Origin: Acidobacteriota bacterium
GTDB lineage: Bacteria; Acidobacteriota; Terriglobia; Bryobacterales; Bryobacteraceae
Assembly: GCA_005808475.1 (NCBI GenBank)
Contig: SYLY01000020.1
Location: forward strand, 1-64,000
Direction: 5' to 3'
DNA length: 64,000 bases
Position numbers and translations under genes: made by a program. The stretch's first letter is position 1. Every line of letters starts with the position of its first letter. Positions 36,238-55,740 of the stretch are shown one piece after another. The notes under the pieces are model-generated. The model was not told the origin of the DNA, did no database searches, and was given only the letters and a program-made list of their open reading frames with translations.

Positions 36238-36243
36238 TATCAT
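36238..36243 (+). promoter_or_regulatory. -10-like TATCAT, 7 nt before the DUF1549 gene start
   Basis: TATCAT is followed by 7 nt and the ATG at 36251. It favours 36251 (MRLVKFWLPLL) over the ATG at 36242, which overlaps the hexamer. No Shine-Dalgarno is present. Confidence 0.4.
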
Positions 36244-36250
36244 GATAGCG

Positions 36251-38077
36251 ATGAGGCTTGTGAAGTTCTGGCTGCCGCTATTGACTTCGTTGGCGGCCGT
36301 CCGCGCCGCCGATCCCAATTGTCCCCGTTATCCGGCCGCCGCGCGGACCGAAACGGAGGACAGCCTACAACTCGATCGCGACTTCCAGGCGTTGCGCCGC
36401 AAAGGCGCATCGAGGGCGGCGGCGTCGAACCGGCCCGCGTCCAACAATTTCATCGATCAGGTGCTGTTCCAAAAGATGGCCGCCGATGGCGTGGCGGCCG
36501 CGCCCAGAACCACCGACGCCGAATTTCTGCGGCGCATCTACCTCGATCTGTCGGGCCGCATTCCCACACCGGAACAGGCGGAGGCGTTCCTCAACGACCC
36601 TGATTCGAACAAACGCGCCGTGCTCGTCGAGCAACTGCTGGCGGCCCCGTCCTACGCCGACCAGCTCACGCTGTTTTACGCCAACAAGTTCAAGGTCACC
36701 CGCGCCCACGAGAGCGTGTCGAGCCCCGGCCGCGACGTCTTCCACAAGTTCCTGCGCGACGCAATCGCCTCCGACCGCCCCTACGACGAGTTCGCCCGCG
36801 AGTTGCTGAGCGCGAAAGGCGAAGTCGACTCCTCGCCGGGTACGCAGTTTTTTGCGCGGTGGATGGACGTGAACGGGCCGATCCAGGATTCCTGGGACGA
36901 CATCACCGACAAGATCTCCACGATCTTCCTCGGTTACAAGACGGAATGCGTCTCGTGCCACAACGGACGGGCGCACTTGGAGAAGATCAACCTGCACCTA
37001 TCGCGGCGAACGCGGAAGGAGTTTTGGGAGCAGTCCGCGTTTTTGTCGCGCATGTTCTACGTTCGATGGAGCGACGATCCGATCGGGTTCCGTCCGCGCA
37101 TCATTCTGGTCGATCGCGACTATGGAACCTATTCGGGGGCGGTACCCGCGACCAATCCCGGCAACCGGCCCGCGCGTGAGGGCGCGGTGGTCACGCCGAA
37201 GTACTTCGGCACCGGCGTAGCTCCGCCGACTGGCGAGTGGCGCCGGGAGTTGGCCAACGCGATCGTGTCGGACCGCCAGTTCGCACGCGCCGCCGTCAAT
37301 CATATTTGGGACTACTTTTTCGGCTTCGGCATCGTGGATCCCCCCGACGCCTGGGACATGGACCGCGTGGATCCGGCGAGCCCTCCGCCGGGCGATTGGC
37401 CGCTCCAGAACTCGCACCCCGAACTGCTCGACCAGTTGGCGCGTTCCTTCGTGTCTGACAATTACAAGCTGAAATCGCTGATCCGGCAAATCGTGTCGAG
37501 CGACGCCTATCAACTTTCGAGCCGCTACGACGGGCAGTGGAAGCCCGGCTTCACCCGCTATTTCGCGCGCTATCAAGCTCGCCGCCTGAGCGCCGAACAG
37601 TTGTACGATTCGACGATCACCGCGACGCGCACCGAACAGCCGATGGTGATCGGATCCTCGGGCCGCGTGGCTGTTTACGCGAATCAACTGCCCGACCCCA
37701 CCGAACCGATCAGCGATTTCCGCGTCGTGGACTTCATGAACCAGCTCGGCCGCGGCAACTGGATGACGATCGACCGCTCCACCGAGCCGACCCTGCTGGG
37801 GTTGCTCTATCAAATGAACGACAGCCAGATCGTGAACCGCTCGCTCGGTCTGGCGAACTCGAACGTGCCCGCGACCAACCGCGTCCATCAGGTGGACGCC
37901 AAGGCCACCACCGACGAAGACGCGATCAGCGCCATCTACCTGGCTACGCTCACCCGCCATCCCACCGATCGCGAGACGACGCTGATTCTGTCGCGCCGGA
38001 GCGGCCCTCGATACCAGTGGTTGAGCGACGTCCAGTGGGCGCTGCTCAACAAGCTCGACTTCACGTTCAACTACTGA
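36251..38077 (+). CDS. DUF1549/DUF1553 protein with a c-type haem motif
   Basis: About 608 residues with a signal peptide (MRLVKFWLPLLTSLAAVRA). Residues about 70-290 are DUF1549-like (FLRRIYLDLSGRIPTPEQAE, YDEFARELLSAKGEVDSSPG). Near residue 233 a CVSCHNG motif could bind c-type haem. From about 330 the DUF1553 part follows (WRRELANAIVSDRQFARAAV, QIVSSDAYQLSSRY, RRLSAEQLYDSTI). The pair DUF1549/1553 plus DUF1501 is common in Planctomycetes and Acidobacteriota, with no settled role. An ATG at 36242 is the alternative start. The DUF1501 gene follows after 15 nt. Confidence 0.88.
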   Translation: MRLVKFWLPLLTSLAAVRAADPNCPRYPAAARTETEDSLQLDRDFQALRRKGASRAAASNRPASNNFIDQVLFQKMAADGVAAAPRTTDAEFLRRIYLDLSGRIPTPEQAEAFLNDPDSNKRAVLVEQLLAAPSYADQLTLFYANKFKVTRAHESVSSPGRDVFHKFLRDAIASDRPYDEFARELLSAKGEVDSSPGTQFFARWMDVNGPIQDSWDDITDKISTIFLGYKTECVSCHNGRAHLEKINLHLSRRTRKEFWEQSAFLSRMFYVRWSDDPIGFRPRIILVDRDYGTYSGAVPATNPGNRPAREGAVVTPKYFGTGVAPPTGEWRRELANAIVSDRQFARAAVNHIWDYFFGFGIVDPPDAWDMDRVDPASPPPGDWPLQNSHPELLDQLARSFVSDNYKLKSLIRQIVSSDAYQLSSRYDGQWKPGFTRYFARYQARRLSAEQLYDSTITATRTEQPMVIGSSGRVAVYANQLPDPTEPISDFRVVDFMNQLGRGNWMTIDRSTEPTLLGLLYQMNDSQIVNRSLGLANSNVPATNRVHQVDAKATTDEDAISAIYLATLTRHPTDRETTLILSRRSGPRYQWLSDVQWALLNKLDFTFNY

Positions 38078-38092
38078 GGGGACTTTGACGTC

Positions 38093-39442
38093 ATGAGATA
38101 TCGACCCAACTGCCCGGGACACGCCCCCTTCACCAGACGGCACTTTCTCTTCGGCGCCGCCGCCTCCGGACTCGCGCTGAGACCCCACGCCGATGCCGAA
38201 ATCACCGGCCGGGCGGCGAACCCGCGAGGCACGGCGCGAGCTTGTATTTTCATCAACCTCAACGGCGGGCCCAGCCACCTCGATACGTTCGATCCCAAGG
38301 ACGGCCCCTGGAATCCGGCCGAGATCGACATGGTGCAACACCCGGGCGGGCTGGTAATGTCGCGCCGCCTTTTCCCCAAGCTGTCCACGCTGACACGCGA
38401 CCTGCTGGTGCTGCGATCCTGCGCCAGTTGGGAAGCCGCGCACGAACGGGGGCAGTTCTACATTCAATCCGCGCATTCGCTGAATCCGGCGTTAGCCGCC
38501 GAGATGCCCCACATCGGCGCGGTGATCGGATACGAAAAGGGCGCCTCCAAGGTCATGCCTCCGTTCCTGGCCTTCAACCAGACGGCGCTGCAGGGGGCGA
38601 CCTTCCTCGGCGGACCCTACATGCCGATGATGCCGCCCGCCACCCGCACGGGCATCGCGACGCTCACGCACAATTTCTTCGGCACGGCGAGCCAGAGCCA
38701 GACCCGGTTCGAGGAACGCTTCCGCCTGCTGCGCGATCTGGACGAGCCGCTTCGCGAGAACCCGCCCAACGAAGTCGTCGGAGCCTACGCCGGTTATTAC
38801 TCGCGCGCCAAGTCCATGATGTACAACGACCCGGTGGACGCGATCTTCAAGTTCAGCGCCGACGACGAGGGGCGCTACGGAGCGACTGCGATCGGGCGCG
38901 CGCTGATTGTGGCGCGTAACTCGATCCGCGCCGCCAACGGTGTCGTATTCGTGAGCGCGACGCAAAGCGGCTGGGACACGCACGACCGCCAGTTCGACCG
39001 CGGCGCAGCCACCAATAACTATGTACTTTCGAACGACCTCGACCGGGCGGTGGGCAATCTGGTGGACGATCTCCGCTCGTCGGGCAACCTCGACAGCACC
39101 CTGATCGTGATGATGGGCGAGTTCGGGCGGACGCCCGGAGTGCTGAACTCGCGCGCCGGCCGCGATCACTACCGGCAGGTGATGAGCGTCGCCATGATCG
39201 GCGGCGGCGTGCGGGGCGGCCGGGCGATCGGGGAGACCAGTGCGAACGGCGGTGAGATCGTCAGTCCGCGGTGGAGCCAGGACCGGCCCATCTATCCAGA
39301 GGACATTGCGGCCACGATCTACTCCGCGCTCGGCATCGACTGGACGAAGGGCATCAACGATACTCCCTCCGGGCGGCGGTACTACTATGTCAACGGCGCC
39401 TCCGAGGGCCGGTACCAGCCAGTGGAGGAAGTGTTCGGATGA
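38093..39442 (+). CDS. DUF1501 protein, Tat-exported
   Basis: A 449-residue protein with a twin-arginine signal (FTRRHFLFGAAASGLAL). The DUF1501 blocks are clear: CIFINLNGGPSHLDTFDPKD, LLVLRSCASWEAAHERGQ, SATQSGWDTHDRQFDRG, VMMGEFGRTPGVLNSRAGRD and SVAMIGGGVRGGRAIG. The fold is alkaline-phosphatase-like, but the activity is not established. GAGGGGAC lies upstream of the ATG at Shine-Dalgarno distance. The stop overlaps the next gene by 4 nt (ATGA). It is the usual partner of the DUF1549/1553 gene just upstream. Confidence 0.92.
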   Translation: MRYRPNCPGHAPFTRRHFLFGAAASGLALRPHADAEITGRAANPRGTARACIFINLNGGPSHLDTFDPKDGPWNPAEIDMVQHPGGLVMSRRLFPKLSTLTRDLLVLRSCASWEAAHERGQFYIQSAHSLNPALAAEMPHIGAVIGYEKGASKVMPPFLAFNQTALQGATFLGGPYMPMMPPATRTGIATLTHNFFGTASQSQTRFEERFRLLRDLDEPLRENPPNEVVGAYAGYYSRAKSMMYNDPVDAIFKFSADDEGRYGATAIGRALIVARNSIRAANGVVFVSATQSGWDTHDRQFDRGAATNNYVLSNDLDRAVGNLVDDLRSSGNLDSTLIVMMGEFGRTPGVLNSRAGRDHYRQVMSVAMIGGGVRGGRAIGETSANGGEIVSPRWSQDRPIYPEDIAATIYSALGIDWTKGINDTPSGRRYYYVNGASEGRYQPVEEVFG

Positions 39443-48103: not shown

Positions 48104-49246
48104 CTATGCCTCGAAACTCTGGCCTTTCGCCAGCTTGTCCCAAGTCACTTCCTTGCCCTTGACGCAAGCCTCGAGCGCCATCACCGCGGTCAGGGTGCTC
48201 GACGCGGCGTGGAAACCCGCGTTCTCGAGCTTGCCTTCGCGAACCCCGTCGACGAACTCGAACACCGCGTCCCTGGTGATGTCGTACGCGGTCTGAACCA
48301 CCTCCGGAGCGCCCTTCTCGCGCCAAACCGTGTAGCCTTTGCGCGACACGTTGACCGCTCCCTTTTCGCACAGGAAGGTCTCGGAAATATCGCTGAAGCC
48401 CGGCGCCTTGAACTGATTGGCCGAATAGCTGAACACCAGCCCGTCGTCGAACTGAAAGGTGCACGCCAGATTGTCGAAGATGTCGCCGTACATGCGGACC
48501 TTACGGCTGCCGTAGCCGCTCACCTTGACCGGATGCCTTTCGGTAAACCAGTTGACCACGTCGATGTTGTGGCAATCCTGTTCGATCAGCATGTCGCCGC
48601 TCAACTCGCGGTAAAAGAACCAGTTGCGGACGCGTTCCTCGCTCTGGGCGTGGCCCGACTTGAGCGGCGGGCCACCGCCGATCCATGCCGCGCGAACCAT
48701 CTTCAACTCGCCCACTTCCCCCGACTTCACCACCTGGCGCGCCTTCCGGTAGTCCTTCCCGTACCGCTGCTGGAAGTCGACCGTGATGCGCTTGGACTTG
48801 TCCGCCTTACGCGCCGCTCGCAACACACGATGACAGCCCTCGGCATCGACCGCGGCGGGTTTCTCCATGAAGATGTGTTTGCGGGAGGCGACGGCCGCCT
48901 CGAAGTGCTCCGGGTGCAGGTAGGCCGGCGTGGCGATGTAGACGGCGTCGTAGTCGCCGGAGAGGATCTCCTTGTAGTTCTTGACCAGCTTGGCCCCGGA
49001 GAACTTCTTGCGCGCATCCTCCAGCTTGTCGTCATAGATGTCGCACACCGCCGCCACACGCAGGAACTCGTGCTTGGCGAAGTGATTGGGCGTGACGTGG
49101 CCGCCGCGGTTGCCAAAGCCGATGACGCCGAGGCTCACCGAGGAATTGGCCTGCGAGCCGCGCACCGATTGCGGCTTGACGATCGTGAATGCCGCGGCGG
49201 CGGCTGCCGCTCCGGCGAACTGGCGCCGGGCCGGGGACGTGGTCAT
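48104..49246 (-). CDS. Gfo/Idh/MocA family oxidoreductase with Tat-like signal
   Basis: A 380-residue NAD(P)-dependent sugar oxidoreductase. The N-terminus SPARRQFAGAAAAAAAFTIV looks like a Tat signal. The Rossmann motif is VIGFGNRGGHV, EKPAAVDAEGCHRVLRA carries the family EKP, and NWFFYRELSGDMLIEQDCHN holds the catalytic His region. GGAGG lies about 6 nt before the ATG at 49246. It diverges from the carbohydrate operon at 49320 and may work with it. Sugar oxidation outside the cytoplasm with a NAD cofactor is unusual, but such exported members, with tightly bound cofactor, are known. Confidence 0.9.
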   Translation of the reverse strand: MTTSPARRQFAGAAAAAAAFTIVKPQSVRGSQANSSVSLGVIGFGNRGGHVTPNHFAKHEFLRVAAVCDIYDDKLEDARKKFSGAKLVKNYKEILSGDYDAVYIATPAYLHPEHFEAAVASRKHIFMEKPAAVDAEGCHRVLRAARKADKSKRITVDFQQRYGKDYRKARQVVKSGEVGELKMVRAAWIGGGPPLKSGHAQSEERVRNWFFYRELSGDMLIEQDCHNIDVVNWFTERHPVKVSGYGSRKVRMYGDIFDNLACTFQFDDGLVFSYSANQFKAPGFSDISETFLCEKGAVNVSRKGYTVWREKGAPEVVQTAYDITRDAVFEFVDGVREGKLENAGFHAASSTLTAVMALEACVKGKEVTWDKLAKGQSFEA

Positions 49247-49300: not shown

Positions 49301-49308
49301 ATTATACT
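49301..49308. promoter_or_regulatory. overlapping divergent -10 elements (ATTATACT)
   Basis: On the plus strand TATACT (49303-49308) lies 11 nt before the ATG at 49320. On the minus strand TATAAT (49306-49301) is a perfect -10, about 54 nt before the ATG at 49246. The two hexamers share four bases, which would make the divergent operons compete for one polymerase site. Confidence 0.5.
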
Positions 49309-49319
49309 GAGACAGTCCC

Positions 49320-50726
49320 ATGAAGGTCTCGATTCTGGTGCCCGTCTACAACGAACGGACCCTCGTGGAGCGGAGTCTCGAGGCGGTGATCCAGGCGCCG
49401 CTGCCCGAGAATCTGGAGCGGGAGGTCGTGGTGGTGGACGATTGCTCCACCGATGGCACCAGCGCGATCCTCGAGCGGCTGGCGGTTCGTTGGCCGCAAA
49501 TCCGCCTCCACCGCCATGCCGTCAACCAGGGCAAGGGCGCCGCGGGGCGCACCGCGATTCGGCATGCCGCCGGGGACTTCTGCCTCATTCAGGACGCCGA
49601 TCTCGAGTACGACCCCAAGGACTATCCCCAACTGATGCGTCCGCTGCTCGAGGGCCATGCCGATGCCGTCTTCGGCTCGCGGTACCTTGCCGGCGAACAA
49701 AAGCGCGTGCTGCCGTTCTGGCACTCACGCATGAACGCCACGCTGACCATGTTCTCCAACATGTTCTGCAACCTGGATCTCACCGACATGGAGACCTGCT
49801 ACAAGGTCTTCCGCACCGATCTGCTCAAAAGCATTCCCATCCGGTCCGACCGTTTCGGCATCGAGCCGGAGTTGACGATGAAGTGCGCCAAGCGCAAGCT
49901 GCGCATCTACGAAGTCCCGATCAGCTACCACGGGCGGACCTATGAGGAGGGGAAGAAGATCGGCTGGAAGGATGGCGTCAAGGCGCTTGGCTGCATCCTC
50001 TACTTCTGGCTGGTGGACGACCTGTACGTGGAGCCGTATGGCCGCGCCTACCTCAACAATCTGAGCGGTACTCCCGCCTATGTGCAGTGGGTGACGAGTC
50101 TGGTGCGGCCGGGACTCGGCGACCGGGTCCTCGAACTCGGCGCGGGCATCGGGACGATGACAGGCCGGCTGATGGGACGGCGCCTCGAGTACACCGCCAC
50201 CGAGAATTCGCCGCTTTTCCTCGACGCGCTCCGCAACCGGTTTCTGCGTACACCGCACGTGAGCGTGCGGGAACTCGATCCCTCCGACCCGGCGGGCTAT
50301 CGAGGGTTGACCGGTTTCGATACGGTCCTCTGTCTGAACGTCCTCGAGTACGCCGCCGATCCGGCTCGCGTGGTGGCGTCGGCGGCCGCCGCGCTGCGGC
50401 CCGGTGGACGCCTGTTCGCGCTCGCTCCCAACGGACCCGGCCTGATGGGATCGCTCGATCGCACGATGGGTCACAAGCGGCGCTTTTCCACCGCCGAGCT
50501 GGCGCAACTGGCGGCCGGAGCCGGCCTCGAGGTGGAGCGAATCCACCAGTTGAACAAGTGCGCCCGGCCGATCTGGTATCTCGATTCGCGCGTGCTCGGC
50601 ACCGACCGAATCTCCAAGGTCACGCTAAAGCTGTTCGACAAGACGGTCTGGCTGTGGAGGTTTCTGGACCACGTCACGCCCGGCCCTGGGTTGTCGTCGG
50701 TACTGGTGGCTCGAAAGAAGAGCTAA
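49320..50726 (+). CDS. glycosyltransferase family 2 fused to a class I methyltransferase
   Basis: A 468-residue fusion. Residues 1-235 are a GT2/dolichol-phosphate-mannose-synthase-like transferase: VSILVPVYNE, VVVVDDCSTDGTS and QDADLEYDPKDY (DxD at about 92). From about 260 a class I methyltransferase follows, with motif I VLELGAGIGTMTGRL near 268 and LRPGGRLFALAPNGPGLMG near 360. One chain would couple glycosyl transfer with methylation of the same or a related product. It begins the five-gene plus-strand carbohydrate operon; the next start lies 9 nt past its stop. Membrane anchors were not seen. Confidence 0.9.
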   Translation: MKVSILVPVYNERTLVERSLEAVIQAPLPENLEREVVVVDDCSTDGTSAILERLAVRWPQIRLHRHAVNQGKGAAGRTAIRHAAGDFCLIQDADLEYDPKDYPQLMRPLLEGHADAVFGSRYLAGEQKRVLPFWHSRMNATLTMFSNMFCNLDLTDMETCYKVFRTDLLKSIPIRSDRFGIEPELTMKCAKRKLRIYEVPISYHGRTYEEGKKIGWKDGVKALGCILYFWLVDDLYVEPYGRAYLNNLSGTPAYVQWVTSLVRPGLGDRVLELGAGIGTMTGRLMGRRLEYTATENSPLFLDALRNRFLRTPHVSVRELDPSDPAGYRGLTGFDTVLCLNVLEYAADPARVVASAAAALRPGGRLFALAPNGPGLMGSLDRTMGHKRRFSTAELAQLAAGAGLEVERIHQLNKCARPIWYLDSRVLGTDRISKVTLKLFDKTVWLWRFLDHVTPGPGLSSVLVARKKS

Positions 50727-50729
50727 ACT
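50724..50729 (+). promoter_or_regulatory. -10-like TAAACT, 6 nt before the dehydrogenase start
   Basis: TAAACT contains the TAA stop of the upstream gene and is followed by 6 nt and the GTG at 50736. There is no Shine-Dalgarno. An internal promoter for a leaderless message inside the operon is possible. The same hexamer recurs before the gene at 53592. Confidence 0.35.
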
Positions 50730-50735
50730 GGCCCG

Positions 50736-51749
50736 GTGTGGGCATTCGGACTCGACTTCGAAAGCCGGACGGCGCGCGAACTGACGCTGCCCGATCCGCG
50801 TCCTCCCGGATGGGGCGAGGTCCTGCTTCGGGTGGAGGAAGCCGGCGTTTGTGGCACCGATCGCGAACTAGCCGCGTTCCGGCTCGGCCGGCCGCCGGAA
50901 GGTGAGCTGGCACTGGCGATCGGGCACGAGGCGGTCTGCCGGGTGCTCGAGACGGGCCCTGGCGCGACGCGCTTTGCCCCCGGCGACTGGGTTGTTCCTT
51001 CGGTGCGCCGGACCTGCTCGCCGGCTTGCGCGTCGTGCAGCCGTGGGCGGCGCGATTTGTGCGTCTCGGGCGGCTACCTGGAGCGCGGAATATTCGGGCT
51101 CCACGGCTACTGCGCGGAGTTCGCCATCGATCGCGAATCCGACCTGACGCCGATCCCCGCCGGTCTGGCGGATCTGGCGGTACTCGTCGAGCCGCTGAGC
51201 ATTGTCGAAAAGGCCATCGCCAGCGCCCTACGGATTCATGAACCCGAAGCCGAAACGGGATTGGTGATCGGCGCGGGGCCCGTCGGCCTGCTGGCCGCGA
51301 TGACCCTGCGGCTTCGGGGACTTCGGGTTGCCGTCCACTCGCTGGAGCCTCGCGGCCACCCGCGCGCACGGGCCGTGGAGCAATGCGGCATCGAGTACCA
51401 TTCGGCTCGGCCGCCGTTGGCGGACATCGTCATCGAGGCCGCCGGAACCGTGCAGGCGGGCCTGTTGGCGATCCGCTCGATGCGCCCATTGGGTGTGTGC
51501 GCCATCCTGGGAGCGCCCAACGCGAGCGGGCCGGTTCCTTTCATGGACTTGATCGTCGCCAACCAGACCGTCTTCGGCAGCGTTAACGCCTCCCCGGCCG
51601 ACTTTGAACGGGCCGTGGCCGACTTGGCCCTTTTTCCCTCCGCTCTCCTGAGCGGGTGGATTCACCGAACGGGACGTAATGCACTGTCATTCACTCTTTT
51701 GGGTGAGGCCGGCCGGTACTTGAAGGTTGTGCATCGCATCGGGGAATGA
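50736..51749 (+). CDS. zinc-dependent MDR dehydrogenase
   Basis: A 337-residue medium-chain dehydrogenase, close to glucose or sorbitol dehydrogenases. VEEAGVCGTDRELA holds the catalytic-zinc Cys and GHEAVCRVLETG the GHE motif. CSPACASCSRGRRDLC is a structural-zinc loop (C-x3-C-x2-C-x7-C), one residue longer in the first gap than usual. VIGAGPVGLLAAMTL is the NAD(P) site. Start GTG is 9 nt after the fusion gene, with no Shine-Dalgarno but TAAACT just upstream. It would oxidise a hydroxyl on the operon's sugar. Confidence 0.88.
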   Translation: MWAFGLDFESRTARELTLPDPRPPGWGEVLLRVEEAGVCGTDRELAAFRLGRPPEGELALAIGHEAVCRVLETGPGATRFAPGDWVVPSVRRTCSPACASCSRGRRDLCVSGGYLERGIFGLHGYCAEFAIDRESDLTPIPAGLADLAVLVEPLSIVEKAIASALRIHEPEAETGLVIGAGPVGLLAAMTLRLRGLRVAVHSLEPRGHPRARAVEQCGIEYHSARPPLADIVIEAAGTVQAGLLAIRSMRPLGVCAILGAPNASGPVPFMDLIVANQTVFGSVNASPADFERAVADLALFPSALLSGWIHRTGRNALSFTLLGEAGRYLKVVHRIGE

Positions 51750-51765
51750 GTAGAATGGGGGGTTC

Positions 51766-52617
51766 ATGGCGTTCCATTTCCGACAGGCGATTTGTAACGA
51801 AGTGTATGAAAAGCGGCCCTTTGCCGAGACCTGCCGGTCCATCAAGCAAGCCGGCTACGACGGGATCGAGATCGCGCCATTCACCTTGGACGAATATCCG
51901 GCTTCCATCTCCCCAGCTCGCCGCAGGGAGTACGCCAGCATAATGGACAGCGAGGGACTCGGTTTCGTCGGTCTTCATTGGCTGATGGTGTCGCCGCGCG
52001 GGCTTCACGTGACGACGCCGGACACCGCGGTCCGGGAGAAGAGCTGGCGCCACATTCGCGATCTGGTGGATTTGTGCGCCGATCTGGCCGTGAAGCAAAC
52101 AGACCCGGGCATCATGGTCTTCGGATCGCCCAAGCAGCGCGGCTCGACGGGCGGGATATCACGCGCGCAGGCAATGGAACACTACGCGCGGGGTTTGGCG
52201 TCGGTGGCCGATCAGGCAGCGTCTCGAGGCGTGACGATCCTGGCGGAAGCTCTGCCTTCGGCCGACTGCGACGTGATGAACACGATCGCGGAGTCGGCGG
52301 GAATCGTGGCGGGAATCGGGAGTCCGGCGATTCGCACGATGTTCGATACTCACAATGCGGCGGACGAAGTGCATCCGCACGATGCGATCGTCGACCGGTA
52401 CTTCGATGTGATCCGGCACATCCACATCAACGAGATGGATGGGCGTTACCCCGGAACGGGGGACTACGACTTCAAACCCCTGTTCGAAGTACTGAATCGG
52501 AAGGACTACCAGGGATGGATCTCTCTGGAGGTGTTCGATTTCAAACCGGACGCGGATACTATAGCCAGCGAGTCGCTTCGCAATATTCGTAGCGTAATAG
52601 AGAGGCTGGAATCATGA
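51766..52617 (+). CDS. sugar phosphate isomerase/epimerase-like TIM-barrel protein
   Basis: A 283-residue AP-endonuclease-2/xylose-isomerase-like TIM barrel. Metal-site blocks are visible: YDGIEIAPFTLDEYP near 35, VTILAEALPSADCD near 160, TMFDTHNAADEVHPHDA near 195 and HIHINEMDGRYPGTGDYDF near 225. A TAGAAT box and a run of G (possible Shine-Dalgarno) precede the ATG at 51766. The end overlaps the next gene by 4 nt. The most likely job is isomerisation or epimerisation of the keto sugar made by the dehydrogenase upstream. Confidence 0.86.
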   Translation: MAFHFRQAICNEVYEKRPFAETCRSIKQAGYDGIEIAPFTLDEYPASISPARRREYASIMDSEGLGFVGLHWLMVSPRGLHVTTPDTAVREKSWRHIRDLVDLCADLAVKQTDPGIMVFGSPKQRGSTGGISRAQAMEHYARGLASVADQAASRGVTILAEALPSADCDVMNTIAESAGIVAGIGSPAIRTMFDTHNAADEVHPHDAIVDRYFDVIRHIHINEMDGRYPGTGDYDFKPLFEVLNRKDYQGWISLEVFDFKPDADTIASESLRNIRSVIERLES

Positions 52618-53582
52618 GTCGATACGTCGTGACGGGTGGAGCGGGTTTCATCGGGTCCAACTTGGTGCGATCCCTGCTGCGGGAGCCCGGCGCCCGGGTC
52701 GTCGTGGTGGACAACTATTTGACGGGCAAACCCGAGAACATCCATGAAGTGCGGGACGGAATTGAGGTCCTCGAAGTCGACATCCGCGACTACGACGATG
52801 TCCGCCGGGCTGTACGCCACGCCGATGTGGTCTACCATCTGGCCGCGATTCCGTCGGTCCCCCGTTCGATCGAGAATCCGGTACCTTCGCATGAAGTAAA
52901 CGTCAACGGAACGTTCAACGTGCTGCGCGCCTGCACCGAAGAACGAGTAAGGCGCGTCATTTTCGCCGGATCCTCGTCGGCCTACGGCGACACCGATGTC
53001 CTGCCCAAGACCGAGGAGATGGCGCCTCGTCCCAAGTCGCCCTACGCGGTGCAGAAGCTGATCGGCGAGAACTATGCCACTGTCTTCTATTCCTGCTATG
53101 GGCTCGAGACGGTGACGTTGCGTTTCTTCAACGTCTTCGGACCGCGCCAGGACCCGGGAAGCCCGTACTCCGGGGTGATTTCGATCTTCATGAAGAAGCT
53201 GATTGCGCGTGAGCAGCCCACCATTTTCGGAGACGGCATGCAAACCCGCGACTTCACCTATGTCGAAGACGTCGCCGGTCTATGCCGCAGGGCGGCCGCG
53301 GCTCCCCGTTCCGCGTGCGGACGGGTGTACAACGCCGGTAACGGGAATCGCTATACGCTGAACGAGGTCTGGGAGACGCTCAACCAGATCGAAGGCACGA
53401 ATATCCCCGCTCGTTACGGGCCGGATCGGGGCGGCGACGTTCGGGATTCGCAAGCCGACACCACGGCTGCCCGGAAGTACCTCGGGCACGATCCGCAATA
53501 CAGCCTGGAGGAAGGGTTGCGGCGAACGCTCGAGTGGTACCGCGCTTCCCTCACCGTGGAGCAACCCGCACTGGCCGGCTAA
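52614..53582 (+). CDS. NAD-dependent epimerase/dehydratase
   Basis: A 322-residue extended SDR. TGGAGFIGSNLVRSLL is the NAD motif, SSSAYGDTD and YAVQK (YxxxK) form the catalytic set, and TRDFTYVEDVAG is a nucleotide-sugar epimerase block. It is close to UDP-GlcNAc or UDP-glucose 4-epimerases. It overlaps the isomerase gene by 4 nt and ends 9 nt before the deacetylase gene. It makes the nucleotide sugar part of the operon, probably feeding the GT2 enzyme. Confidence 0.9.
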   Translation: MSRYVVTGGAGFIGSNLVRSLLREPGARVVVVDNYLTGKPENIHEVRDGIEVLEVDIRDYDDVRRAVRHADVVYHLAAIPSVPRSIENPVPSHEVNVNGTFNVLRACTEERVRRVIFAGSSSAYGDTDVLPKTEEMAPRPKSPYAVQKLIGENYATVFYSCYGLETVTLRFFNVFGPRQDPGSPYSGVISIFMKKLIAREQPTIFGDGMQTRDFTYVEDVAGLCRRAAAAPRSACGRVYNAGNGNRYTLNEVWETLNQIEGTNIPARYGPDRGGDVRDSQADTTAARKYLGHDPQYSLEEGLRRTLEWYRASLTVEQPALAG

Positions 53583-53585
53583 ACT
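53580..53585 (+). promoter_or_regulatory. -10-like TAAACT, 6 nt before the deacetylase start
   Basis: TAAACT includes the TAA stop of the epimerase gene and is followed by 6 nt and the ATG at 53592. No Shine-Dalgarno is present. It is the same hexamer and spacing as at 50724. Confidence 0.35.
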
Positions 53586-53591
53586 GGCTGC

Positions 53592-55121
53592 ATGGCCGCG
53601 ATTCCGCCGAAGACAGTCGTACTCACATTCGACGACGCGGTGAAGTCGCACCGCGCTTTCGTCGGGCCGTACCTGAAGGAACTCGGCTTCGGCGCCACAT
53701 TCTTCGTGTCCCATCGCTGGATGGACGACGCGGCGAACTTCATGACGTGGCTGGAGATCGCCGAATTGCACGGAATGGGCTTCGAGATCGGGAACCATAC
53801 GTGGACGCACCTGAGCCTGGCGCAGCCCCGCTCCGCCGGGCGCCTCGAGGGCGAACTGGCGCTCGTCGAATCGGCCCTGGCGCGGGTGAAGGTTCCCAAG
53901 CCCACCAGCTTCGCGTGGCCGGGCAACGGGTTTGGCCCTGAAGCGATCGAAGTCCTACGCCGAGGGGGCTACCGCTTGGCTCGCCGCGGAGGCATGCCTG
54001 AGGTGGAGTATGGGCGAGCCACGGTCGGACCGCTGTTCGATCCCTCGCGCCGGCATCCACTGCTCATTCCGACTACCGCCGATTCCTATCCGAACTGGAC
54101 CTTCGAACACTTCCAGTCGGTGGTGGCGCGCGCCCCGGAGGGGCAGGCGGTTGTGCTTCAGTTCCACGGTGTGCCGGACGTGGCGCATCCGTGGGTGCAT
54201 ACCGAACCGGAGCTGTTCCGGCGGTGCATGCGATACCTAAAAAACCAGGGATTTCAAGTGGTTGCGCTGCGAGATCTCGAGCGATTTCGTGGCAGTTCGC
54301 CGCCTGACGATCCCTTGCTTAGCCAGCGCCATCCGCTCGTGCCGCCGGACAAGCTGCGCCTCCCCGTGGAGATGGAGGCGACCGGCGCCAGTCTGCCCTA
54401 CTGGCTCGGCGTGATGCGGCGGCATGGCTACTCCGCGGCGGAGATCCGAGAAGTAACCGGGGAGGCGAGCCACGCCGGGCCCCTAGCCGTCAACGGCAGC
54501 GTCCTGCCGTATCCGGGCGGACGCCACCCGCGCCTGGGGTTCTTCGAAGGCGCCGTGGCTCCGATGCGCGGGACCAAGGCGAGCGTGTTCCTGCCTTGGG
54601 ACCAGTCGAGCTACGTCGTGGTCGACGTGCCCGAGGCGATCTTCGCCAACGGCGAATTGATCTTCCTGGGACACACCCACATCCCGACCAAGTGGGACGA
54701 CCGCAATATGCCGGTCGACAACGTCGACTGGCAGCCTCAGCCGGACGGATCGCTACGTCTGGACTGGACGCTGCCCGACAAGGTTGAGTTCGGCGCCTCG
54801 GTGAAGCCAGCGACGGACGGCGTGGACATGGAGATCTGGCTTCGCAACACTACTGCCGCGCCGCTCCGGAAAATGCGCGCCCAGGTGTGCGTCATGCTGG
54901 GGAGGGCCAAGGGATTCGAGGCCACCACCAACGACAACAAGACCCTCGGTAAGACAGAGGCGCGAGTTTCGGCCGGCGGCCGCACCATCCGCACCGAATG
55001 GGAGCCGCTCAACCGGGTGTGGGGTCAGCCTCGATGCCCCTGCATGCACTCCGACCCCGCGCTACCGGACTGCGAACCCGGTCAAACAGTTCGGGCGCGG
55101 GGCTGGCTTCGGTTTTCCTGA
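53592..55121 (+). CDS. polysaccharide deacetylase with an unidentified C-terminal domain
   Basis: A 509-residue protein. Residues about 1-245 are a carbohydrate esterase family 4-like domain: VVLTFDDAVKSH (motif 1, with Ala after the Asp pair where Gly is usual), NHTWTHLSL (HxxxH zinc pair) and FAWPGNGFGPEA (motif 3-like). From about 290 to 509 lies a beta-rich domain (GRHPRLGFFEGAVAP, DGSLRLDWTLPDKVEFGASV) with CPCMHSDPALPDCEPGQ near the end that I do not recognise. No signal peptide is seen. It ends the five-gene operon and converges on the gene at 55123. Confidence 0.87.
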   Translation: MAAIPPKTVVLTFDDAVKSHRAFVGPYLKELGFGATFFVSHRWMDDAANFMTWLEIAELHGMGFEIGNHTWTHLSLAQPRSAGRLEGELALVESALARVKVPKPTSFAWPGNGFGPEAIEVLRRGGYRLARRGGMPEVEYGRATVGPLFDPSRRHPLLIPTTADSYPNWTFEHFQSVVARAPEGQAVVLQFHGVPDVAHPWVHTEPELFRRCMRYLKNQGFQVVALRDLERFRGSSPPDDPLLSQRHPLVPPDKLRLPVEMEATGASLPYWLGVMRRHGYSAAEIREVTGEASHAGPLAVNGSVLPYPGGRHPRLGFFEGAVAPMRGTKASVFLPWDQSSYVVVDVPEAIFANGELIFLGHTHIPTKWDDRNMPVDNVDWQPQPDGSLRLDWTLPDKVEFGASVKPATDGVDMEIWLRNTTAAPLRKMRAQVCVMLGRAKGFEATTNDNKTLGKTEARVSAGGRTIRTEWEPLNRVWGQPRCPCMHSDPALPDCEPGQTVRARGWLRFS

Positions 55122-55122
55122 C

Positions 55123-55740
55123 CTACATCGTCAGGACTTGGAAGTGGAATCGCTCCGGCGGCAGCGCGTCGTGCGGCCCGGGGCTCATGCCTTGCCACGT
55201 TTGAAATGCCGCATTGGCGAGCGTATCGTTCAAATAAAACAAGAACTGATCCGAGACGCACTGGAGCGGCGGAGGTTGGCGGAAGGCCAAGCGCAATCCG
55301 ACCGCCTTTTCGAGACCCAGCCCGTGGGCGTGAACGGACTTGTCCTCGAGCAACCGCACGAAGCTGGACCTTCCAGCGTGGGGCCACACGTCGGGGCGCA
55401 GTAGGGGGCGGAGTTTGAGGTCGTGCTCGAACGTGGTCTCGCACTGACGGATCCACTCGAGGATGCCATCTCCCCAATGCCAGTGCCGGAGCATGCCGAA
55501 GTAGTTGTCGACCAGGTTCAGCGCCATGTCCATTTTGCGCCGGTCGACATCGGCCTCCGAGGCAATTGAGTCCAGGAGCACGGTAGGAACCAAGTCCTCC
55601 TTCTCGACAACCTTCGCCGCCAGATCCATGACTCGATCCATCCGCTTGGGATGGCCGCCATCATGAATCATGAGGGGCGGCAATTCCACCAGGCCCGTCC
55701 CAGCCAGCTCCAAAAACCTGCGGTCTCCAATGGTATCCAT
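55123..55740 (-). CDS. hypothetical protein
   Basis: A 205-residue protein that I do not recognise. It begins MDTIGDRRFLELAGTGLVEL and appears mostly helical. Histidine- and tryptophan-rich segments (DNYFGMLRHWHWGDGILEW, LIHDGG-type IHDGGHPKRM) suggest possible metal binding, but this is only a guess. It ends one nucleotide from the deacetylase stop in convergent orientation. There is no signal peptide and no tight operon partner. Confidence 0.6.
   Translation of the reverse strand: MDTIGDRRFLELAGTGLVELPPLMIHDGGHPKRMDRVMDLAAKVVEKEDLVPTVLLDSIASEADVDRRKMDMALNLVDNYFGMLRHWHWGDGILEWIRQCETTFEHDLKLRPLLRPDVWPHAGRSSFVRLLEDKSVHAHGLGLEKAVGLRLAFRQPPPLQCVSDQFLFYLNDTLANAAFQTWQGMSPGPHDALPPERFHFQVLTM

Follow-up and report, generated by a model that had tools for sequence, protein, structure and literature searches.

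A recurrent four-gene sugar-enzyme cassette of Bryobacteraceae, probably arranged as two transcription units, and the deacetylase gene beside it

The window analysed here is a stretch of 64,000 nucleotides from an Acidobacteriota bacterium of the family Bryobacteraceae (GenBank assembly GCA_005808475.1, contig SYLY01000020.1, positions 1 to 64,000 of the forward strand). It carries five consecutive plus-strand genes at positions 49320 to 55121. The first, FUS (49320..50726), encodes a glycosyltransferase family 2 (GT2) domain (residues ~1–233) fused to a class I S-adenosylmethionine (SAM) methyltransferase domain (residues ~246–467), as assigned by Pfam and by fold. It is followed by ADH (50736..51749, GTG start), a zinc dehydrogenase of the glucose-dehydrogenase type (PF16912 and PF08240; PDB 2b5w), by TIM (51766..52617), a xylose-isomerase-like TIM-barrel epimerase/isomerase (PF01261; ketose 3-epimerase structures), and by EPI (52614..53582), a short-chain dehydrogenase/reductase (SDR) nucleotide-sugar epimerase of the WbpP/WbgU/GalE group (PF01370; PDB matches). 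The last gene, DEA (53592..55121), encodes a NodB-type deacetylase (PF01522) with a C-terminal domain that has no family match, and it lies outside the conserved cassette described below. The intergenic gaps are 9 nt (FUS-ADH), 16 nt (ADH-TIM), −4 nt (TIM-EPI) and 9 nt (EPI-DEA).

These open reading frames (ORFs), their strand and their spacings are as an earlier note on this DNA had described them. The protein families that it had named were upheld as well: all five plus-strand proteins pass the curated Pfam cut-offs (ADH with both ADH_N and Glu_dehyd_C). The divergent Gfo/Idh/MocA oxidoreductase gene mentioned there is also present. This gene, GFO (48104..49246, minus strand; PF01408), encodes a protein with a twin-arginine-like N-terminus and is a facultative neighbour. 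Its start is likely at 49246 rather than at the longest-ORF start, 49321, because GGAGG precedes this ATG and the predicted protein then begins in a twin-arginine-like manner; the divergent gap would be ~73 nt. Scanning the window for Rfam families and for tRNA genes gave no match.

Each of the five proteins was searched against 250 genomes of the window's order. The gene-pair and four-gene counts that follow were made among the matches listed (~150 per search), with the window itself excluded. FUS was found near full-length, at 61% identity or more, in at least 149 genomes besides the window, and the named records that match it at 65–66% are labelled Bryobacteraceae or Bryobacterales; nearly all members of the window's family carry the gene. 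TIM and EPI were adjacent in 103 of the 105 genomes that have both, and FUS and ADH in 45 of 47, spread over 21 of the 84 genera sampled. FUS was located less than 5 kb from TIM in 65 of 110 genomes, and all four genes followed each other in order in 25. The two pairs also occur apart, since 7 genomes have FUS-ADH adjacent and TIM on a separate contig, and 28 have TIM-EPI adjacent and FUS located elsewhere; contig breaks may account for some of these cases. For ADH, the 57 matches of at least 230 bits were kept, and 53 of them adjoin FUS or TIM. The lower-scoring matches were dropped, among them three partial ones (in genomes G210, G240 and G213) with coordinates that fit the pattern.

The surroundings of FUS were then read at 78 loci chosen from the 149 listed matches, mostly the best-scoring ones and then those on long contigs. 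At the 66 loci with at least 4 kb of downstream sequence, co-oriented partners within 5 kb were EPI (45 loci), TIM (35) and ADH (24). They occurred as ADH-TIM-EPI at 23 loci, as TIM-EPI at 12, as EPI alone at 10 and as ADH alone at 1. FUS, ADH, TIM and EPI form a recurrent cassette across many Bryobacteraceae genera, with the same order and orientation, beyond chance. The earlier note had viewed all five genes as one shared system, to be checked by a neighbourhood search with FUS as bait. In that search the idea stands for the four genes that are kept together across genera, but not for DEA, whose adjacency to EPI was seen nowhere but in the window and one congener (G085, locus L099). In another congener, G210, the gene ahead of DEA is a different one, and at all loci read outside the genus DEA also lies elsewhere; it is a local neighbour and not a cassette member. 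A literature search limited to open-licence PMC articles turned up none that deals with the cassette or the fusion. The component families are known, and their combination and product are apparently undescribed.

Two other gene families were seen at the loci read. A PfkB-family kinase gene follows FUS in place of ADH, TIM and EPI at L120, L121, L144, L161 and L167 (Pfam for L161), and a low-molecular-weight phosphotyrosine phosphatase gene follows EPI at L118, L158, L160, L162 and L169 (Pfam for L118).

Upstream sequences of the cassette genes were compared for the motif TANAHT ending 4–14 nt before the start codon, with 200 shuffles for comparison. The motif precedes FUS at 56 of 79 loci (expected 2.5, shuffle maximum 7) and TIM at 27 of 44 (expected 0.9, shuffle maximum 4), and precedes ADH at just 2 of 29 and EPI at 2 of 51. 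The usual distance from hexamer to start is 11 nt for FUS and 7–9 nt for TIM. The window has the −10-like hexamers TATACT (49303..49308, plus strand), 11 nt before the FUS start, and TAGAAT (51751..51756, plus strand), 9 nt before the TIM start. In the relatives, the TIM hexamer was present at 17 of the 25 loci where TIM follows ADH, i.e., inside the array, and at 8 of the 17 where TIM directly follows FUS. A sigma-70 scan of the region returned one site, no more than in shuffles; such a scan depends on a −35 hexamer, and only a comparison of relatives brings out the −10-like signals.

PMC3160421 describes leaderless genes as having TANNNT ~12 bp ahead of the start and reports them in three of three Acidobacteria genomes, at 13.3% on average. 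The form of the FUS and TIM hexamers agrees with that signal. Since these conserved −10-like hexamers sit only a few nucleotides before the FUS and TIM starts, the corresponding mRNAs may be nearly leaderless. Taken with the gene-pair counts, the four genes are probably organised in two units, FUS-ADH and TIM-EPI. Two further hexamers of the window, both TAAACT on the plus strand, are located before ADH (50724..50729, overlapping the FUS stop, and not conserved in relatives) and before DEA (53580..53585, overlapping the EPI stop, and without support from relatives). Each begins with the TAA stop codon of the preceding gene and stands exactly 6 nt before the next start codon.

FUS was modelled with AlphaFold2 (mean predicted local distance difference test score, pLDDT, 88). 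In the model, residues 1–233 match dolichyl-phosphate mannose synthase (DPMS) with Z 26.0 and 2.2 Å over 223 residues, followed by ArnC (Z 23.3) and GtrB (Z 23.1), the three alignments spanning 215–223 residues, and the twelve best structural matches of this domain are all DPMS, ArnC or GtrB. Residues 246–467 match the SAM methyltransferase 2p7i (Z 20.6), with the Rossmann fold and glycine-rich SAM motif of class I enzymes. In 32 FUS sequences, D92 and D94 of the DxD-like motif QDADLEY and E272 and G278 of the methyltransferase domain are invariant. FUS thus shares with the polyprenyl-phosphate glycosyltransferases DPMS, ArnC and GtrB, its closest GT-A folds, the fold across the whole GT2 domain and the conserved DxD-like aspartates, but it has a methyltransferase domain behind GT2 where those enzymes continue otherwise.

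A phylum-wide search recovered the full-length FUS architecture outside the order in at least 34 of 297 genomes, and named records with it come from Planctomycetota, Desulfobaccales, Kiritimatiellae, Verrucomicrobia, Chloroflexi and Myxococcales. At three Bacteroidota loci (L228, L229 and L235) the GT2 and methyltransferase halves are adjacent separate genes. At three loci of other phyla, PMT_2 proteins (glycosyltransferases of the GT-C fold) over the cut-off are neighbours of the fusion (L216 and L232) or of the split pair (L229). At L229 the genes ahead of the split pair encode a UDP-sugar dehydrogenase and an epimerase that resembles EPI (42%), and the PMT_2 protein comes after it. In the genome of the window, PMT_2 exceeds its cut-off at 14 places.

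EPI gives a full-length SDR match to the UDP-GlcNAc(A) 4-epimerases WbpP and WbgU (acting on UDP-N-acetylglucosamine or its uronic acid) and to GalE. Its S-Y-K catalytic positions (SSS, Y and K) align with those of WbpP, WbgU and 6wjb, as in extended SDR enzymes. It differs from GalE and TviC in falling below their curated NCBIfam cut-offs, with 171.5 vs. 262.3 bits for GalE (TIGR01179) and 215.6 vs. 760 bits for the UDP-GlcNAcA C4 epimerase TviC (NF011728), and neither name was adopted. ADH passes the PF16912 gathering score (96 vs. 34.9 bits). In NCBIfam, the best-scoring names are IolG for GFO, IolM for ADH and IolO for TIM. As Thermotoga inositol enzymes, however, the three were rejected, with 109.9 vs. 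355, 68.7 vs. 450 and 83.2 vs. 300 bits, far under the cut-offs. PMC12632266 describes an IolO-like enzyme, LguG, that works with the dehydrogenases LguA and LguD in the L-glucose pathway of Luteolibacter. By their best names GFO, ADH and TIM resemble the inositol trio, and TIM resembles LguG, whereas the scores are sub-cut-off and the genes stand here with those of a glycosyltransferase and of a nucleotide-sugar epimerase. We take the resemblance as a lead only.

DEA is typical of NodB deacetylases (carbohydrate esterase family 4, CE4) in its N-terminal part: PF01522 covers residues 5–129 of 509 (69.7 bits vs. cut-off 23.1), and the metal-binding residues D14, D15, H69 and H73 are invariant in 21 sequences. 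It departs from them in its C-terminal part and, within the window's genus, in its export signal. Among the matches listed, near full-length relatives (53–73% identity) occur in 35 other genomes of the 250, together with partial ones. At 22 DEA loci besides the window, no neighbouring family was found more than five times, and recurrent adjacent families reached at most four loci, mostly within one genus. The in-frame sequence upstream of DEA encodes two arginines and then a hydrophobic stretch in all 21 relatives outside the genus (L012–L028 and L293–L296). This twin-arginine-type signal was seen in none of the three sequences of the window's genus (the window, L010 and L011), and in-frame stops lie 3 codons (window) and 5 codons (G210) upstream of DEA. 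Because the export signal of its relatives is missing in the window's genus, DEA is probably cytosolic here and exported in the relatives.

The C-terminal domain of DEA (54318..55121) reaches the cut-off of no Pfam or NCBIfam family and gave no trusted PDB-sequence match; a hit to 4rjv (E 0.68) was taken as chance. Stand-alone homologues of ~280–310 residues (L297–L302), with 29–31% identity over the domain, have twin-arginine-like starts and a common PCxHxDP motif. Judged by these sequences, it is apparently an undescribed domain family. The earlier note had suggested checking this domain by structure prediction, and the single-sequence AlphaFold2 model was poor (mean pLDDT 44.8).

We infer that the arrangement is best explained by two cooperating small transcription units that serve lipid-linked sugar chemistry, with DEA as a recent neighbour, an explanation that we give about an even chance. 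EPI would supply a UDP-sugar through C4 epimerisation, and the GT2 domain of FUS would move this sugar onto polyprenyl phosphate at the cytoplasmic face. The methyltransferase domain would add a methyl group, either to that sugar or to the product on the carrier. On our best reading, a methylated polyprenyl-linked sugar would be the result. ADH and TIM may adjust the oxidation state or stereochemistry of the sugar precursor, and they would form an optional branch, because the 10 loci with EPI alone keep it without them. A GT-C enzyme encoded elsewhere in the genome might use the lipid-linked product. What the sequences show is the gene order and its conservation, the two hexamer signals, the folds and the changing surroundings of DEA. 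Every step of this chemistry is deduced, and the lipid-linked scheme taken by itself is tentative, somewhat short of probable. Unit 1 (FUS-ADH) and unit 2 (TIM-EPI) would each be read from a leaderless or nearly leaderless mRNA, and DEA, with its own −10-like hexamer and without the export signal of its relatives, may have come to this place by rearrangement within the genus.

The earlier note had proposed a single five-gene operon in which one transcript would encode all five proteins, DEA included, and these would work on a single surface or stored glycan. Although the short gaps, the single strand and the EPI-DEA adjacency shared with G085 agree with it, a conserved −10-like hexamer stands inside the array before TIM as well as before FUS, further hexamers precede ADH and DEA in the window, FUS-ADH and TIM-EPI occur apart, and DEA lies elsewhere in G210 and at all loci read outside the genus. 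Because of the TIM hexamer and the separate location of DEA in relatives, this proposal was set aside as best reading; it appears very improbable, and one operon for these genes is unlikely on the sequence evidence. Alternatively, GFO, ADH and TIM could serve the catabolism of a sugar or cyclitol, as in the inositol pathway of Thermotoga or the L-glucose pathway of Luteolibacter, and lie beside a separate FUS-EPI glycan module. The NCBIfam names and the partnership of LguG with LguA and LguD (PMC12632266) point that way, but the scores far under the cut-offs and the tie of TIM to EPI, in nearly all genomes that have both among the matches listed, and not to GFO, make such a division distinctly unlikely.

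The four genes might also have stayed together by descent, each unit doing its own job. At the 63 loci where 4 kb or more lies upstream of FUS, genes kept divergently upstream encode SAICAR synthetase (21 loci), a colicin-V-type protein (21) and a HAD hydrolase (20), three unrelated genes identified by Pfam, as well as GFO (20), and 20 of the 66 downstream loci have none of ADH, TIM and EPI. EPI and TIM nevertheless exceed this background, because the unrelated upstream genes reach only 20–21 of 63 loci, and ADH stands beside FUS or TIM in almost all of its listed matches. We regard inherited synteny without a shared pathway as rather unlikely. The upstream genes and the loci without partners also count against the two-unit, lipid-linked explanation, as do several other observations: (i) the linkage of ADH to FUS (24 of 66) is not above the synteny background by that count, and its membership is better argued from its adjacency to FUS or TIM; the linkage of GFO likewise is not above the background of unrelated neighbours; (ii) among 80 named loci, ADH or TIM lies beside FUS only in Bryobacterales-type records; (iii) no specific-enzyme NCBIfam name reaches its cut-off for FUS, ADH, TIM or EPI; (iv) a GT-C Pfam match was obtained for only three of eight membrane-type neighbours scanned, with none for L214, L215, L151, L129 and L230; and (v) the hexamer before ADH in the window, though not conserved, would split unit 1, and the relatives in the hexamer comparison are not independent, although the ADH and EPI genes at these loci serve as internal negatives.

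A broader scheme can be drawn around the preferred two-unit explanation. In the FUS family a single polypeptide would build a methylated sugar linked to polyprenyl phosphate, by a pathway that is near-universal in Bryobacteraceae, present in many phyla and encoded by two adjacent genes in Bacteroidota. Bryobacteraceae would add a dedicated ADH/TIM/EPI precursor branch on leaderless transcripts, and DEA, an enzyme that is otherwise exported, would have become part of this branch in the cytosol after losing its signal in the genus of the window. We consider this scheme doubtful as a whole.

Bryobacteraceae occur widely in soil and are poorly represented in culture, and to our knowledge little is known about their surface glycans. 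With a cassette kept across many genera and FUS in many phyla, there are now concrete enzymes to examine for a lipid-linked modified sugar. The locus also calls for caution in genome reading: tight same-strand spacing is no proof of one operon where leaderless-gene −10 elements can overlap the preceding stop codon.

Beyond the five genes, an ORF at 55123–55740 on the minus strand (205 residues), convergent with DEA, has no Pfam or NCBIfam match. Elsewhere in the window, positions 36242–39442 encode a PSCyt2/PSD1 protein followed by a DUF1501 protein.

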